Source: Eretmocerus hayati (Eukaryota > Arthropoda > Insecta > Hymenoptera > Aphelinidae). From it: a stretch of DNA of 64,000 bases. The position numbers and the translations under genes were made by a program. Every line of letters starts with the position of its first letter. Position 1 is the first letter of the stretch. The notes beneath the pieces are model-generated. The model was given only the letters and a program-made list of their open reading frames with translations. It did no database searches and was not told the origin of the DNA. Of the stretch, positions 13,557 through 64,000 are shown in pieces. Location: contig CM056743.1 of NCBI GenBank assembly GCA_029851415.1, positions 118,698,305-118,762,304 on the forward strand, given 5' to 3'.

Positions 13557-13699
13557 CAACGTTAAGGTGAGGCCTCTGATTGTTGATTTCTCGTCCCCAA
13601 TTGCTTAATACTGATGGATAATTCTTGATCTTGGAGGACTAAATGATAAAGAGTAAAAACACTCTTTTATAGATGGTGATAAGATTTTATTCTTGCAAC

Positions 13700-60140: not shown

Positions 60141-61489
60141 TGTTATTTCACACTCAGAGAGATTAATTATTTCGATAATTATTTAATTAACAAGATTTAA
60201 ATCAAGCTGGAACAATCTTATGTTGAACAACTTGCAACTTGCTTGCAGCTGATCGTGCTACGCCAACGCCACTGCGAGCTGCGTCAGCTATGAGGAACAA
60301 CTAGATATAAACGATAATTTATTCACAACGCAATCGGTAAGGTAGAGCGCTGGGTGTGACGTACACGAGATCCGTGTACGTGTGCGTAGCCTGAATAGGT
60401 GTAAGTCTCGAGCACCGCGCGCCAAGTATAAAAAGTATTTCCCACGCGAGTAAACTCATACACGTTATTTAGCAGCAAACTTATCACGGTATAACTTGAG
60501 ATAGAAACAAGATAAGGAGTTCATTCTTTGAGCGCTATTGAAAGGAACATTTCAGGAACTTAACAGTGGAAGAATCTCCTACACGTAATAATATTCTGAT
60601 TGTTTAACGATAATCTACACCTGAGATTTGGCCAAACAAGCCCCGCGCTCATACTATTATAACCATGCAAAAATCATGTATACAAGCTGGCTACAGGGAC
60701 GATTCGGGTATGGCAAAACCCAATACGACCTCAACTCATTACCCAAACAAAACCAGAGTCAAAGATTCATAATTTATCTTATTAGAACCGAAAATTCATA
60801 TCTGACCTTGCACGTCTAGCGTAATACACAATACACACGATTAAATGGAAGGTACAAGAACAAATGCTCGCACTTCACATGTTCTGGAATAGCAAACCCC
60901 AATAATCTATTATATCATTAGCCACCAAGTTAAAAGAGTCTAGAATAATTATCCAGCTTATAAACAACGATTCGAATTCCGTGGGATTTACAGCGTGCTT
61001 TCTTCTGAGAGAGAAGCTTATAAATGCAGCCGCCTTTCGGGCGAGCACTCACTTCTTGGTTTGGCTTCCAACTAAGCACCTCTTGTTCTGACTCTCAACT
61101 GGACACTTCTAATACGAGTTTACTTATCATTTATAGAAGACATAAGTCCAAATATTGTACTCAACTGGTGTATGCAAGACCAACACTATTGTACATCGTC
61201 GGATGTGACGAACCATCATTCTTAGTTATTGTATCAAAGGACGAATAAACCTCCAGTTATATTCACTCGCCGACTATGAGTTCCTGGATTCGAAACCTAC
61301 CGCCAAATCGGCACAACAACGCCATCTAAACGACATAAGGTCGTAACAACTAACCATCATTCTTAGTTATTGTATCAAAGGACGAATAAACCTCCAGTTA
61401 TATTCACTCGCCGACTATGAGTTCCTGGATTCGAAACCTACCGCCAAATCGGCACAACAACGCCGTCTAAACGACATGAGGTCGTAACA
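60141..61489 (+). mobile_element. Putative 5' LTR of an LTR retroelement
   Basis: Borders TGTTA (60141-60145) and TAACA (61485-61489) are inverse, as in retroviral-type LTRs. A TATA box (TATAAAT 61019-61025) and two AATAAA signals (61244-61249, 61385-61390) sit in the expected order, so U3 would be about 60141-61045 and R begins near 61048. Directly after, with two spacer bases, comes a tRNA-like primer site. The left border is a best guess, because the partner LTR lies beyond the window and no target duplication can be checked. Confidence 0.65.
61019..61025 (+). promoter_or_regulatory. TATA box of the LTR
   Basis: TATAAAT followed about 25 bases later by a GAGCACTCACTT start-like region. 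It drives transcription towards the ORF cluster. Confidence 0.6.
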
Positions 61490-61492
61490 ACT
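61211..61492 (+). repeat. 141-bp tandem duplication in the R/U5 part of the LTR
   Basis: Units 61211-61351 and 61352-61492 both begin AACCATCATTCTTAGTTATT. I see only two differences (CGCCATC to CGCCGTC and ATAAGG to ATGAGG). Each carries AATAAA and ends GGTCGTAACAACT. Confidence 0.95.
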
Positions 61493-61505
61493 GGTGACAG
61501 CGGTG
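61492..61505 (+). promoter_or_regulatory. Primer binding site, tRNA-Leu type
   Basis: TGGTGACAGCGGTG is the complement of a tRNA 3' end CACCGCTGTCA-CCA. That matches the end of leucine tRNAs (family form CACCGCTGCCACCA). It would prime minus-strand synthesis. Confidence 0.7.
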
Positions 61506-61718
61506 TCTGGGAACTGGCGGAGTGAATACAGAAAGAAACTGGGGAGGGACATTGACACACAAAATATTGAAGAAACAGTGGATTCATTGCACCGCCAACT
61601 ACAGAGGATCGTCAAGTGGGCTGCAATAAACGGCTTCCGACTCAACACTAACATCTGCGACTCGACAAAGGAACTACCTGCGACCGGACACGTGGCACCC
61701 GCACCGCAGGAGTCTTAA
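61494..61718 (+). pseudogene. RT-thumb-like fragment in the leader
   Basis: The frame overlaps the primer site and reads NIEETVDSLHRQLQRIVKWA, then INGFRLNTN. This resembles the thumb region of non-LTR reverse transcriptases (L--L--I--WA--NGF--N--KT). No RT catalytic motif precedes it. It may be a captured scrap or chance. Confidence 0.35.
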
Positions 61719-61989
61719 TAGACACACCTACTACGACGCACGCCACTCAACGCTACGAGTAATTTCAAGCATCAACAGCAACAAGTATCATCAGTCTCCA
61801 ACGACAGCAACCTCCAAACAGCGACAGCCTCCGAGCAACAGAACCTCCGAGCATCAAATTTCTTCAAGCATCGACATCGAGGGACCAAATTACAAGGGAA
61901 GACTAGACTAAGCATTTATCTTAATCATATAGAATTACTACGAGTGAACATGATAATTTATCTGTGAGGTGAGAATCTGGCAATCGGAC
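61719..61989 (+). other. Leader between RT-like fragment and first ORF
   Basis: CAACAGCAACAAGTATCATC, CAGCGACAGCCTCC and similar A/C-rich runs suggest a low-structure 5' leader. No gene is seen. Confidence 0.5.
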
Positions 61990-62181
61990 ATGGTTAGTAG
62001 GAGGATTTTAAAAAGGAATATTAGGAAAGAAATCAGAGAAATCAGGGACGCGTTGGTCAAAATTAATTTCGGAAACGGAATAACGATTAAGGACTTGGAT
62101 TTGGCAATTTCTATCATCTGCGAATTAACAGACGCAAACGAAAAATTATTACGGGTCGTTGAGGAAATTATACAAGATTGA
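61990..62181 (+). CDS. Cluster ORF1: 63-residue basic helical protein
   Basis: Starts at ATG 61990 (MVSRRIL...). The N terminus is strongly basic (RRILKRNIRKEIREIRDAL). The rest alternates hydrophobic and charged residues, ending in ELTDANEKLLRVVEEIIQD, and is likely a helical bundle or short coiled coil. It lies about 0.5 kb after the primer site and 11 bases before ORF2. No homologue is known to me. The open frame extends upstream to a GTG at 61969, but the ATG is the sensible start for a eukaryote. Confidence 0.6.
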   Translation: MVSRRILKRNIRKEIREIRDALVKINFGNGITIKDLDLAISIICELTDANEKLLRVVEEIIQD

Positions 62182-62192
62182 AATTCCATAGT

Positions 62193-62525
62193 ATGTCGGG
62201 ATTTGAAAGTGGGAACCAAGAATCGAACGAAATACTGTTGGGAAAAATAGAATCAACCGTGAATAGCCAAGCGAACATTCTACGAGAAACTTCAAAAACA
62301 GTCGAGGATCTCAAGATCATTGTGACAGAACAGGAAGAAATAAACGAACAGTGTGAATCACGCTCAGAAGAACAATTTGTCGAAATTGATGCATTTTCAA
62401 ATCAAATCGAGGAAATTTTAAATTTGTTTAGGAATAGTGTAACGGCGGTAGAGGAACAAATTACGCGTTTGGAAAATAAGATAGAGACATTACAAAACAT
62501 CCTGGACTTGGAAAGAAGCAATTGA
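62193..62525 (+). CDS. Cluster ORF2: 110-residue acidic coiled-coil protein
   Basis: Starts at ATG 62193 (MSGFESGNQ). From about residue 15 it is a continuous predicted coiled coil, with heptad-like spacing in ILRETSKTVEDLKIIVTEQE and EEQITRLENKIETLQNIL. The charge is acidic, in contrast to basic ORF1 and ORF3, so these could pair. It has few cysteines and no enzyme motif. The gap to ORF3 is 19 bases. The only in-frame upstream start would be the non-standard TTG at 62178, which overlaps the ORF1 stop. No homologue recognised. Confidence 0.65.
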   Translation: MSGFESGNQESNEILLGKIESTVNSQANILRETSKTVEDLKIIVTEQEEINEQCESRSEEQFVEIDAFSNQIEEILNLFRNSVTAVEEQITRLENKIETLQNILDLERSN

Positions 62526-62544
62526 AGATTGAAGTGTTCATAAA

Positions 62545-62865
62545 ATGAACAATATTGTTTTACGAGGGAAATTGAGGGAAATCATTCAAATTCTTAAAAT
62601 TCAACAACAAGAGACAAAACAAGTCCGCATCGAGCTAAAAAAGATCCAAGCATTCTTTCGGGAACAATACGACGAGAACGAGGTTTGCGTAGTGAGATCA
62701 ATAAATAAATTCAAACGAATCAATAGAGCGAGGGAAGGATTCTTTGCTGCAAGGAAAATTGTAAAAAGAGAAATTAAACGCATCAACCGCCGATTTTGGG
62801 CTTTGGAGAGATTGTTTGAGAGGGCACAAGAAACATACTTCATTTGGGAGATGAGATTTGAATAA
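62545..62865 (+). CDS. Cluster ORF3: 106-residue basic helical protein
   Basis: Starts at ATG 62545 in a good context (AAAATGA). The N-terminal half is helix-like (LREIIQILKIQQQETKQVRI), and the second half is very basic (FKRINRAREGFFAARKIVKR, then EIKRINRRFWALERLFERAQ). This could bind nucleic acid. It is in the same frame as ORF4, with only a stop and six bases between, so readthrough would fuse them. No homologue recognised. Confidence 0.65.
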   Translation: MNNIVLRGKLREIIQILKIQQQETKQVRIELKKIQAFFREQYDENEVCVVRSINKFKRINRAREGFFAARKIVKREIKRINRRFWALERLFERAQETYFIWEMRFE

Positions 62866-62871
62866 AATATT

Positions 62872-63231
62872 ATGCCGCCAAGGGATCTGCCTATAGAAAG
62901 AGTAATTAACGAACGGGCAGAACCAGACTTCAATCAATATTTCGAGATAATTAGCCGACTCGTAACCACATATTGCATGTCACAGAGAAGGGAAATATCG
63001 GAATTTTATATTGGTAATCAAAGCGGGACACAATCGTGTTTAGACTGTTTTGAACAAGAAATTTTTGAACCCAACGAAAGGATTATTGTGTACTCGGATT
63101 TCCACTTGAACGTAGACAGAGATCAGGATATACTTCTGTGCGACCAGTGTAGGGTCCCCCTGGTGTATAAGCGTCTTGCGATTGACTGCGGCGAATGCGT
63201 ACGGATCACGACGAATCAGATTTGCAGTTGA
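62872..63231 (+). CDS. Cluster ORF4: 119-residue zinc-binding-type protein, paralogue of ORF6
   Basis: Starts at ATG 62872 (MPPRDLPIERV). The N-terminal third is mixed-charge. The C-terminal part carries C-x2-C (CLDC), H (FHLN), C-x2-C (CDQC) and C-x2-C (CGEC) with spacings 18, 11 and 12. ORF6 has the same order with spacings 19, 12 and 12, plus similar surroundings (ILLCDQCRVPL and IDCGECVRI against TYACRFCKKNL and IECEICLRI). It is therefore likely a treble-clef or RING-like zinc fold made by duplication. Role unknown; a nucleic-acid or protein-binding accessory factor is a guess. Confidence 0.7.
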   Translation: MPPRDLPIERVINERAEPDFNQYFEIISRLVTTYCMSQRREISEFYIGNQSGTQSCLDCFEQEIFEPNERIIVYSDFHLNVDRDQDILLCDQCRVPLVYKRLAIDCGECVRITTNQICS

Positions 63232-63257
63232 GGGAGACCGGATTTTATTTCTAGGGT

Positions 63258-63437
63258 ATGGAATCGAGAATCGTGGCGGTAAAGAGAAATTGCGTTCTGC
63301 TAAACAGAGTGATAGAAGCCTTCTTGCTAGGGACCATCGGCGGATACAAATCGGGAAGTAATCGCTACATTCAGTTTTACGTTGACGATTGTATAACCCA
63401 AAATCTACAGAAAGGTCTAAGACGATTTGGGGGTTGA
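63258..63437 (+). CDS. Cluster ORF5: 59-residue small protein
   Basis: Starts at ATG 63258 (MESRIVAVKRN) and ends at TGA 63435-63437. It contains a hydrophobic stretch (VLLNRVIEAFLLGTIGG) followed by SNRYIQFYVDDCITQN. It fills the gap between the two zinc-type ORFs, 26 bases after ORF4 and 23 before ORF6. That continues the packed layout and is the main reason to believe it. The motif is too short for family assignment. A competing frame (63176-63361) overlaps ORF4 and lacks an ATG at its start. Confidence 0.5.
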   Translation: MESRIVAVKRNCVLLNRVIEAFLLGTIGGYKSGSNRYIQFYVDDCITQNLQKGLRRFGG

Positions 63438-63460
63438 TTTTTCAATTCGTAGTTACATAA

Positions 63461-63811
63461 ATGTGCTACAAGAGAACCTCTGCGAATCAGGATTCGATCG
63501 GACCGTACCCCAACCAACTGGACTCATTCCTTCTGGAATTGGAAAATTTTGTTTGCCTGAATACAGACAAAAGCGTTGCTATTTATCTTAAAGATTCAGG
63601 GCACTTATACGCGTGCGAAGAGTGTTACAAATTCCATAACTCATTGTTAAAACGGGAGACATTTTTTGTCGAGGAGCGATTCCACAGCATTAAAGAGAGG
63701 ACTAGCGGCGTGACTTATGCGTGTCGATTTTGTAAAAAGAATCTGATTAACGAATCAAACGTTATCGAGTGTGAAATCTGTTTGAGAATAATTTTCAATA
63801 ATTTCACGTGA
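63461..63811 (+). CDS. Cluster ORF6: 116-residue zinc-binding-type protein, paralogue of ORF4
   Basis: Starts at ATG 63461 (MCYKRTSANQ). It carries CEEC, H (RFHSI), CRFC and CEIC, spaced as in ORF4, with an extra H three residues after CEEC (YKFHNSL). The order and the hydrophobic positions around the last two pairs match ORF4, so the two arose by duplication and have diverged strongly. The gap to ORF7 is nine bases, and the two share a frame. It is probably a zinc-stabilised binding domain; function not known. Confidence 0.7.
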   Translation: MCYKRTSANQDSIGPYPNQLDSFLLELENFVCLNTDKSVAIYLKDSGHLYACEECYKFHNSLLKRETFFVEERFHSIKERTSGVTYACRFCKKNLINESNVIECEICLRIIFNNFT

Positions 63812-63820
63812 TCAGACAAA

Positions 63821-64000
63821 ATGTCGAGAACACGAGGGGCGGCTAAGGTCCGGAAATCACCGAGACTGAACCCAAGAGACAAGGGTACAGACGAAATTGA
63901 GAAGATACAAAATATTACAGCGATAGGAAACGTGGAAAGCGTCCCGAACGCGACAGAATTAACTATCGCAATACCCATAAATCAGAGAAACATGAGTGGC
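63821..64000 (+). CDS. Cluster ORF7: basic N terminus of a larger protein, possibly Gag, cut by window end
   Basis: Starts at ATG 63821 in a strong context (CAAAATGT) and stays open for all 60 remaining codons. The first 20 residues are basic (MSRTRGAAKVRKSPRLN). They are followed by a charged linker (DKGTDEIEKIQNI) and a more hydrophobic stretch (ATELTIAIPIN). Position after an LTR, primer site and leader makes gag the natural guess, but nothing in these 60 residues proves it. Confidence 0.55.
   Translation, partial: MSRTRGAAKVRKSPRLNPRDKGTDEIEKIQNITAIGNVESVPNATELTIAIPINQRNMSG

Follow-up and report, generated by a model that had tools for sequence, protein, structure and literature searches.

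The window analysed here is a 64,000-nt stretch of the 692-Mb genome of Eretmocerus hayati (contig C3:118698305–118762304), and its right-hand end, positions 61990–64000, lies inside a Ty3/gypsy-type long terminal repeat (LTR) retrotransposon (Metaviridae) of ∼22.2 kb. At this locus seven open reading frames (ORFs), here called O1 to O7, follow one another on the same strand, and each starts at the first ATG past the preceding stop (Table 1). A preliminary description, made from the letters of this DNA, suggested that all seven could form the accessory block of a retroelement. The seventh is in fact the beginning of gag, and the accessory block therefore consists of the six ORFs ahead of it.

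The packing of these frames is as tight as first described (about 95 per cent of 2 kb) and lies beyond chance. The seven ORFs make up 95.3 per cent of 61990–64000, with stop-to-start gaps from O1 through O7 of 11, 19, 6, 26, 23 and 9 nt, whereas dinucleotide shuffles of the same DNA averaged 13.8 per cent, peaked at 52.0 per cent and never came as high (0/2000). Among 1240 two-kb segments of the window (100-nt steps, both strands) none reached 90 per cent; the top value, 86.4 per cent, overlaps the block locus, and the highest coverage away from it, 83.5 per cent, comes from two longer ORFs. It is therefore the number of serial ORFs, and not coverage alone, that is unusual.

Table 1. Features of the retrotransposon within the window (window coordinates; copy counts refer to the sampled block copies described in the text).
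Feature	Position	Strand	Remarks
5' target-site duplication copy, TGGG	60351..60354	none	TGGG again 3' of the 3' LTR, L058:4059–4062
5' LTR, 1135 bp, TGTGAC...GTAACA	60355..61489	+	pairs with 3' LTR, L058:2922–4058
Tandem duplication, 141-nt unit, LTR 3' end	61208..61489	+	in both LTRs of the window copy
Leader, LTR to O1	61490..61989	+	nearly without ATG; less structured than its shuffles
Primer binding site, TGGTGACAGCGG... (TGG)	61492..61509 (3' limit approximate)	+	starts 2 nt past the LTR end
GTGAGG box	61964..61969	+	24–26 nt upstream of O1 in 24/26 copies; candidate splice donor or other signal
O1, 63 aa (amino acids), helical	61990..62181	+	start context G..G; intact in 26/28 copies
O2, 110 aa, acidic, coiled-coil-like	62193..62525	+	charge −15.5; intact in 23/28
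O3, 106 aa, basic	62545..62865	+	charge +11.5; 89 genomic matches; intact in 24/28
O4, 119 aa, zinc protein	62872..63231	+	7 Cys and 1 His common to all 22 relatives aligned; intact in 26/28
O5, 59 aa, basic	63258..63437	+	conserved DD motif; intact in 22/28
O6, 116 aa, another zinc protein of the O4 family	63461..63811	+	weak start T..T; intact in 22/28
O7, first 60 codons of gag	63821..64000	+	open at window end; continues at L010:1–1251

The block belongs to a complete retroelement. A rightward extension of the sequence, proposed earlier as a check, finds gag, pol and a 3' LTR, and the LTR and primer site reported upstream are borne out by an LTR pair that is 99.9 per cent identical over 1137 nt (L058:2922–4058 versus window 60353–61489) and by the TGG site just past the 5' LTR. 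The two LTRs differ at ∼1 position, so the insertion is young. Gag, begun by O7, totals 416 residues (L010:1–1251) and carries three zinc knuckles by eye and a Pfam zf-CCHC match of 22.2 bits, over the cutoff. Downstream of it the pol domains run in the order reverse transcriptase (RVT_1), RT_RNaseH, and then Integrase_H2C2 and rve, the last at 30.1 bits and thus slightly below its cutoff of 32.6. No protease domain appeared in a Pfam scan of L010:1–1248 and 1635–2576, the stretch 1252–1634 lying outside the scan. Together, gag-pol, the LTR pair and the conservation of the ORFs support the preliminary view of a retroelement whose accessory block is polycistronic.

Genome searches gave 111 matches to O4 (150 of 247 candidates scored) and 89 to O3 (113 of 113 scored), spread over contigs C1–C4. 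The element is thus resident in the host, and contamination or a prokaryotic or phage origin was rejected on the same ground. No relatives were recovered from a viral contig search (O4, O6, O3, the first 60 residues of gag, O2 and an O4+O6 alignment), a genome contig collection (O4+O6), a phage search (DNA of 61000–64000) or a protein database search (O6, O4+O6 and O3, with O1 and O5 left out). The primer-site pattern did match L001, a phage-like contig, and this was set aside as a chance match.

Twenty-eight block copies, 8 supplied by the O4 genome search and 20 hand-picked from its list, were examined, and their ORF order is identical. When an ORF is counted as intact at 90 per cent or more of the window ORF length, all seven are intact in 13 of the 28 and the gag start is present in 27. 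The spacing is closely kept: 124 of 126 scorable stop-to-start gaps fall within 3–30 nt. The O1–O2 gap is 11 nt in 21/21 copies, O2–O3 is 18–21 nt, O3–O4 is 6 (15 copies), 3 (8) or −4 (1), O4–O5 is 6–30 nt and once 83, O5–O6 is 23–26, and O6–gag is 9 nt (17 copies) or 10 nt (4). The gap sequences themselves have diverged among copies.

Ratios of nonsynonymous to synonymous divergence (dN/dS; Nei–Gojobori, nine copy pairs between families, undefined values omitted) were 0.07–0.50 for O1 (8 of 9 pairs defined), 0.05–0.12 for O2 (7), 0.07–0.26 for O3 (7), 0.04–0.17 for O4 (all 9), 0.14–0.54 for O5 (7), 0.23–0.33 for O6 (6) and 0.05–0.12 for the gag part (7). These values are rough, since synonymous divergence is near or past saturation in many pairs, and all of them lie below 0.6. 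With every defined value at or below 0.54, the comparison indicates that O1–O6 and gag are under purifying selection between families; ratios near 1 in most ORFs, named beforehand as the outcome that would tell against the preliminary description, were not found.

The block is, in addition, largely swept of start codons. Between 61990 and 64000 there are 13 ATG against 37.5 expected (z −5.85; 0/2000 dinucleotide shuffles), 7 of the 13 being those that open the ORFs; no other of the 64 trinucleotides is as strongly depleted, and the ATG ratios of the block are the lowest among 496 two-kb segments. When the proteins and codon counts are held fixed, out-of-frame ATG number 3 against 18.3 expected (0/5000 shuffles) and are again the most depleted trinucleotide out of frame (z −5.6). 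The most enriched are ACG, ATT, GGA, ATC and CGT, three of which differ from ATG at a single base and the other two at more. The three out-of-frame ATGs that remain have weak contexts and open frames of 9–19 codons, and internal in-frame ATG account for 3 of 632 codons, one of them in gag. CAT, the same triplet on the opposite strand, is present at a normal level (26 vs 29.0). The leader (61494–61989) holds 1 ATG against 7.1 expected; the R-U5 portion of the LTR that precedes it shows no such deficit (5 vs 5.6). Depletion is not significant in any of seven control ORFs from other parts of the window (lowest tail 223/2000), nor in the one pol piece tested (9 vs 10.1, 373/1000). Single ORFs are mostly too short for significance (tails of 46/2000 for O4, 95 for O1, 168 for O6 and 300 for O2), and the signal resides in the block as a whole.

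The same clearing recurs in 13/13 intact copies, in which O1–O6 carry 3–8 out-of-frame ATG against 17.1–20.8 expected (0/500 shuffles in each) and the 480-nt leaders 0–3 against 5.8–7.6. Of 61 out-of-frame ATGs in these 13 copies, which are not independent of one another, 51 have neither a purine at −3 nor a G at +4. Six family representatives, with 65–83 per cent DNA identity over equal-length ORFs, hold 29 residual ATGs at 23 places, 19 of them private to one representative (codon numbers not corrected for alignment); a residual ATG at O1 codon 50 is common to four of the six. Because 19 of the 23 places are private, the clearing has for the most part been maintained anew, and not merely inherited.

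Fourteen further, more distant loci were compared with the window block. Five of them (L031, L032, L037, L038 and L043) place zinc, zinc, O2-like, O3-like and small ORFs, in that order, before gag, so that in this distant clade the order is changed and each protein is still separate. L040 has a single zinc ORF and a small O5-like ORF (47 per cent, E 6e-4), L044, L041 and L039 are partial, and L042 has fragments only. O1 was recognised in none of the reordered or partial loci (L031, L032, L037–L041, L043, L044). Gaps are larger in the six distant loci tested for ATG, whose gag is not depleted and several of which are close kin of each other.

There is reason to think that these ORFs are expressed from a single message. 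With a probability that we put at roughly 0.75, a single RNA driven by the LTR holds the seven cistrons and is translated by a scanning-based route, and the mode is probably scanning of the polycistronic RNA mixed with reinitiation. Under such a scheme 40S subunits would scan this RNA linearly, O1 being translated first; post-termination subunits would restart at the ATG 3–30 nt beyond the stop, while subunits not yet recharged would keep scanning across an ATG-poor body until they met a later start. The start of O6, which is weak (T..T) in 22/22 copies, would let many subunits pass on to gag. Of the modes named earlier (reinitiation, leaky scanning or splicing), the clearing favours those based on scanning, since ATG-free bodies matter mainly if subunits traverse them. 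The short stop-to-start gaps suggest reinitiation after O1–O5, and pure leaky scanning is unlikely because the O1–O5 starts have a purine at −3 and only that of O6 is weak. Three other devices were rejected. A ribosome shunt via a strong leader hairpin does not fit a leader that folds worse than all 100 of its shuffles (z +2.4); the core TGGGA of a calicivirus-type termination upstream ribosome-binding site (TURBS) lies near only 1 of 6 window junctions; and the AATAAA of an MDG1-like early poly(A) site at O3/O4 is missing in several families.

The same element and ORFs might instead be expressed mainly via subgenomic mRNAs, made by splicing or from alternative starts, each with another ORF at its head. 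Such a route could draw on the GTGAGG box, found 24–26 nt before O1 in 24/26 copies and adjoining, in the window, a donor-like GAG/GTGAGA at 61969 (the slash marking the cut); a 475-residue ORF near the 3' end of the element would need some such route, and in some endogenous retroviruses of insects env is expressed by splicing from an exon 5' of gag, according to the available part of PMC12992720. The block itself, on crude criteria, offers one acceptor-like site (63453), and 61000–64000 has no GTRAGT donor. Monocistronic messages, moreover, give no reason for clearing ATG across upstream bodies, yet these are cleared, and we regard splicing, the part of the earlier proposal that fared less well, as an unlikely main route. 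A smaller chance still attaches to the idea that the scarcity of ATG is a by-product of composition or of low methionine and says nothing about translation. The strand is purine-rich, internal methionine is rare, gag is somewhat ATG-poor as well, and the enriched out-of-frame trinucleotides include neighbours of ATG (ACG, ATT, ATC) along with GGA and CGT. However, the dinucleotide and synonymous-codon shuffles hold these properties fixed and the depletion still exceeded every one of them, CAT is not depleted, and neither are the control ORFs or the tested pol piece; we consider this account improbable.

Hardly credible, in our judgement, is the notion that frameshifts and stops have split what was once a single long ORF, or that the block is a relic in decay, and that its small ORFs have no separate meaning. 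In the window copy O3 and O4, and likewise O6 and gag, do share a frame with one stop between them, and 15 of the 28 copies have at least one ORF damaged, lost or unrecognised, a count that also weighs against the single-message reading. On the other side, ORF ends are identical and gaps short at synonymous divergence near or above 1, each window start is the first ATG after the stop before it, and the distant clade has reordered these proteins while keeping them separate.

Several further observations count against serial translation from one RNA. The starts of O1–O5 have a purine at −3 in 120/121 cases, ORFs of 59–119 codons usually allow little reinitiation unless a special factor assists, and no reinitiation factor was identified in the element; the GTGAGG box, recurrent as it is, remains a candidate splice donor. 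Gag is itself mildly depleted, with 6–13 ATG against 8.9–12.7 in the 13 intact copies (tails 5–44/500 in 10 of them and 174–344/500 in the remaining three) and 13 against 17.6 in the window gag (45/1000), so that the boundary of the clearing at gag is graded. Depletion is only moderate at L031, L032, L037, L038, L040 and L043 (11–13 vs 16.4–21.3; 0–11/500) and not significant in two other element types (L033, L035). Two structure predictions were of low confidence (predicted local distance difference test scores, pLDDT, of 35 and 39). Among the five copies of the closest family (10 pairs pooled, few changes) dN/dS is 1.39 for O1, 0.36 for O3, 0.78 for O4, 0.10 for O5 and 0.32 for gag, with no synonymous change at all in O2 and O6; nonsynonymous changes are thus not rarer than synonymous ones in O1, O2 and O6. 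With so few changes these ratios neither support nor refute constraint in the youngest copies.

The duplicated zinc modules of the preliminary description correspond to O4 and O6. Across 22 aligned relatives of this family C35, C56, C59, H78, C90, C93, C106 and C109 are invariant, in the ligand order C, CxxC, H, CxxC, CxxC, which we take to differ from that of RING domains. The similarity of O4 to O6 was matched by 0/500 ordinary shuffles and by 6/2000 with Cys and His positions fixed, and gave no signal once Cys and His were masked (847/2000); O4 and O6 are likely of common descent, a conclusion that rests on the Cys/His pattern. The family has no significant Pfam family or solved structure, and likenesses of the zinc ORFs to E6, RING and ribosomal zinc-ribbon proteins were dropped as not significant. 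Searches of Pfam, PHROGs and PDB gave only sub-threshold matches for the block ORFs. The coiled coils proposed earlier hold for O1 and O2, whose 3.5-residue periodicity was reached in 0/500 and 1/500 shuffles, and are weak in O3 (35/500). By shuffling, O2 may be related to O3 (2/500), and O5 may be a truncated zinc copy (23/500). The O5 family (window 63258–63437 and small ORFs of L031, L037, L038, L040 and L044) has a common DD motif, often Y[VI]DD, which resembles the active-site motif of reverse transcriptase. None of O1–O6 in the window starts with MG, and with a top 19-residue hydropathy of 1.32 (O5) none has a clear membrane segment; O5 of the relative L008 starts with MG, without an evident membrane segment by eye. 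The acidic O2 and the basic O3 may form a complex, the heteromeric pair being a guess. For the zinc-binding pair, O4 and O6, a possible role is that of accessory factors that bind RNA or host proteins (in export, packaging, escape from silencing or cell-to-cell spread).

Other parts of the element complete the picture of its architecture. The 5' LTR contains TATAAA at 60427, 60959 and 61019 and AATAAA at 61244 and 61385, and the 141-nt unit duplicated at its end occurs only once in the 3' LTR of a different copy (L059). The target duplication of the window element is the 4-bp TGGG flanking both LTRs, and a purine tract, GGAATAAGGAGGGAGG, precedes the 3' LTR. Troyka (PMC12440569) was set aside as a match, its termini differing in the available part of that account. 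A noncoding block at 61964–61989 (GTGAGG...TCTGGCAAT), adjoining O1 on its 5' side, recurs across families and is a possible splice donor or packaging signal. From the end of pol to the 3' LTR there are ∼11.7 kb (C3:118768060–118779720; L045, L050, L056, L058) with few long ORFs, largely common to one other copy (98–99 per cent) and partly to a second (∼78 per cent). The sole long ORF in this region, of 475 residues (L058:394–1821), has no Pfam match above cutoff, which bears on the presence of an env gene such as enveloped insect retroviruses of errantivirus type carry, though a spliced or diverged env could escape such a scan. Its counterpart in another copy is a 527-residue open frame (L060:2948–4531), and its C-terminus is weakly like the O4/O6 zinc family (11.3 bits; tentative).

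Relatives of O4 also occur in other settings, four O4-like places being found at 23–24 per cent identity in the genome search. L033:293–4001 and L034 carry a 534-residue open frame, an O4-like zinc ORF, a 62-residue ORF and, last, a gag-like frame in which a zinc knuckle is present; the 534-residue frame has Ser/Arg-rich stretches and no Pfam match (Pfam run on L033 only). At L035:56–3168 (C3:55938000–55942000) an O4 relative of 185 residues is flanked on one side by a glycoprotein of chuvirus type (Monjiviricetes; PF24664, E 6e-187) and on the other by an inhibitor of apoptosis of the BIR-RING kind (PF00653, E 3e-20). L036 (C4:34202800–34207200) has ORFs in the same order and of equal or similar sizes (Pfam run on L035 only). 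A repeated element joining a glycoprotein with an anti-apoptotic gene would be notable. Elsewhere in the window, two adjoining frames at 1092–2907 with Tc5/CENP-B-type DNA-binding and DDE_1 domains represent a pogo-type transposase, apparently interrupted, and a 305-residue frame at 13673–14590 matches GIY-YIG just short of threshold (20.9 bits against a cutoff of 22.6) and is possibly Penelope-like.

Several known systems resemble parts of this arrangement, and the comparisons below follow the available portions of the cited accounts. Members of the MDG1 group of Drosophila (412, mdg1, Stalker) carry sORF1 and sORF2 upstream of gag with low dN/dS; peptides for both are reported in several members, and sORF2 has been proposed to act in transmission from cell to cell (PMC11952523). 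The window element likewise has small conserved sense-strand ORFs between LTR and gag, but six instead of two, without the N-myristoylation (MG) start or clear membrane segment that would liken O1–O6 to sORF2, and with zinc proteins and a 22-kb size that are absent from those portions of PMC11952523. In rice tungro bacilliform virus and the badnaviruses the lack of internal AUGs allows ribosomes to reach a third ORF ∼900 nt downstream (PMC5902531, PMC3542737). Common to those viruses and to the block described here are closely spaced short accessory ORFs before the main ORF, cleared of internal ATGs, with residual ATGs that are weak and short-framed. However, these plant pararetroviruses have two upstream ORFs over ∼900 nt, whereas here six extend over 1.83 kb, and their upstream starts are weak or non-AUG, whereas O1–O5 mostly have a purine at −3 and O6 alone is weak. 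Cauliflower mosaic virus translates its polycistronic RNA by TAV-dependent reinitiation (PMC5902531, PMC5972666), and a run of cistrons set close together on the same RNA would, if our reading holds, be found here as well. The virus needs its transactivator, and no TAV-like protein was identified in the element; ATG clearing, for its part, is tied to the leaky-scanning genera and not to TAV-mode reinitiation (PMC5902531, PMC5972666). Finally, LTR retrotransposons of bdelloid rotifers have, beside gag and pol, a captured ORF3 whose expression typically relies on spliced messages (PMC5408684). They too show modular extra ORFs common to different retroelements, but with a single ORF3 in place of six accessory ORFs.

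Two small ORFs before gag (MDG1) and AUG clearing (plant pararetroviruses) are thus already known. The titles and abstract openings surveyed in the open-licence literature showed no LTR element of an animal in which three or more ORFs stand before gag, no AUG clearing in such an element and no zinc family of this kind. The broader proposal, which we hold with less assurance than the single message itself but still judge somewhat probable, is that of a giant animal LTR retroelement clade with a true eukaryotic operon: six small genes would be serially translated from one RNA by scanning and reinitiation along a 2.3-kb path to gag largely purged of AUG, in a modular, reordered gene set whose core is a new eight-ligand zinc family also found at chuvirus-type glycoprotein/BIR-RING loci.

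To our knowledge, eukaryotic mRNAs rarely hold several serial genes. The clearing of start codons would preserve, in the sequence itself, a trace of the way in which ribosomes probably get to serial genes, and a natural message of seven cistrons would make polycistronic translation in animals testable. The elements described here extend the story of the MDG1 sORFs from two accessory proteins to a toolkit that can be reordered, and they add a new family of zinc proteins that has no Pfam match and is met repeatedly in retroelements. Beyond this clade, the clearing of ATG could act as a simple signature of hidden operons in transposons and viruses.

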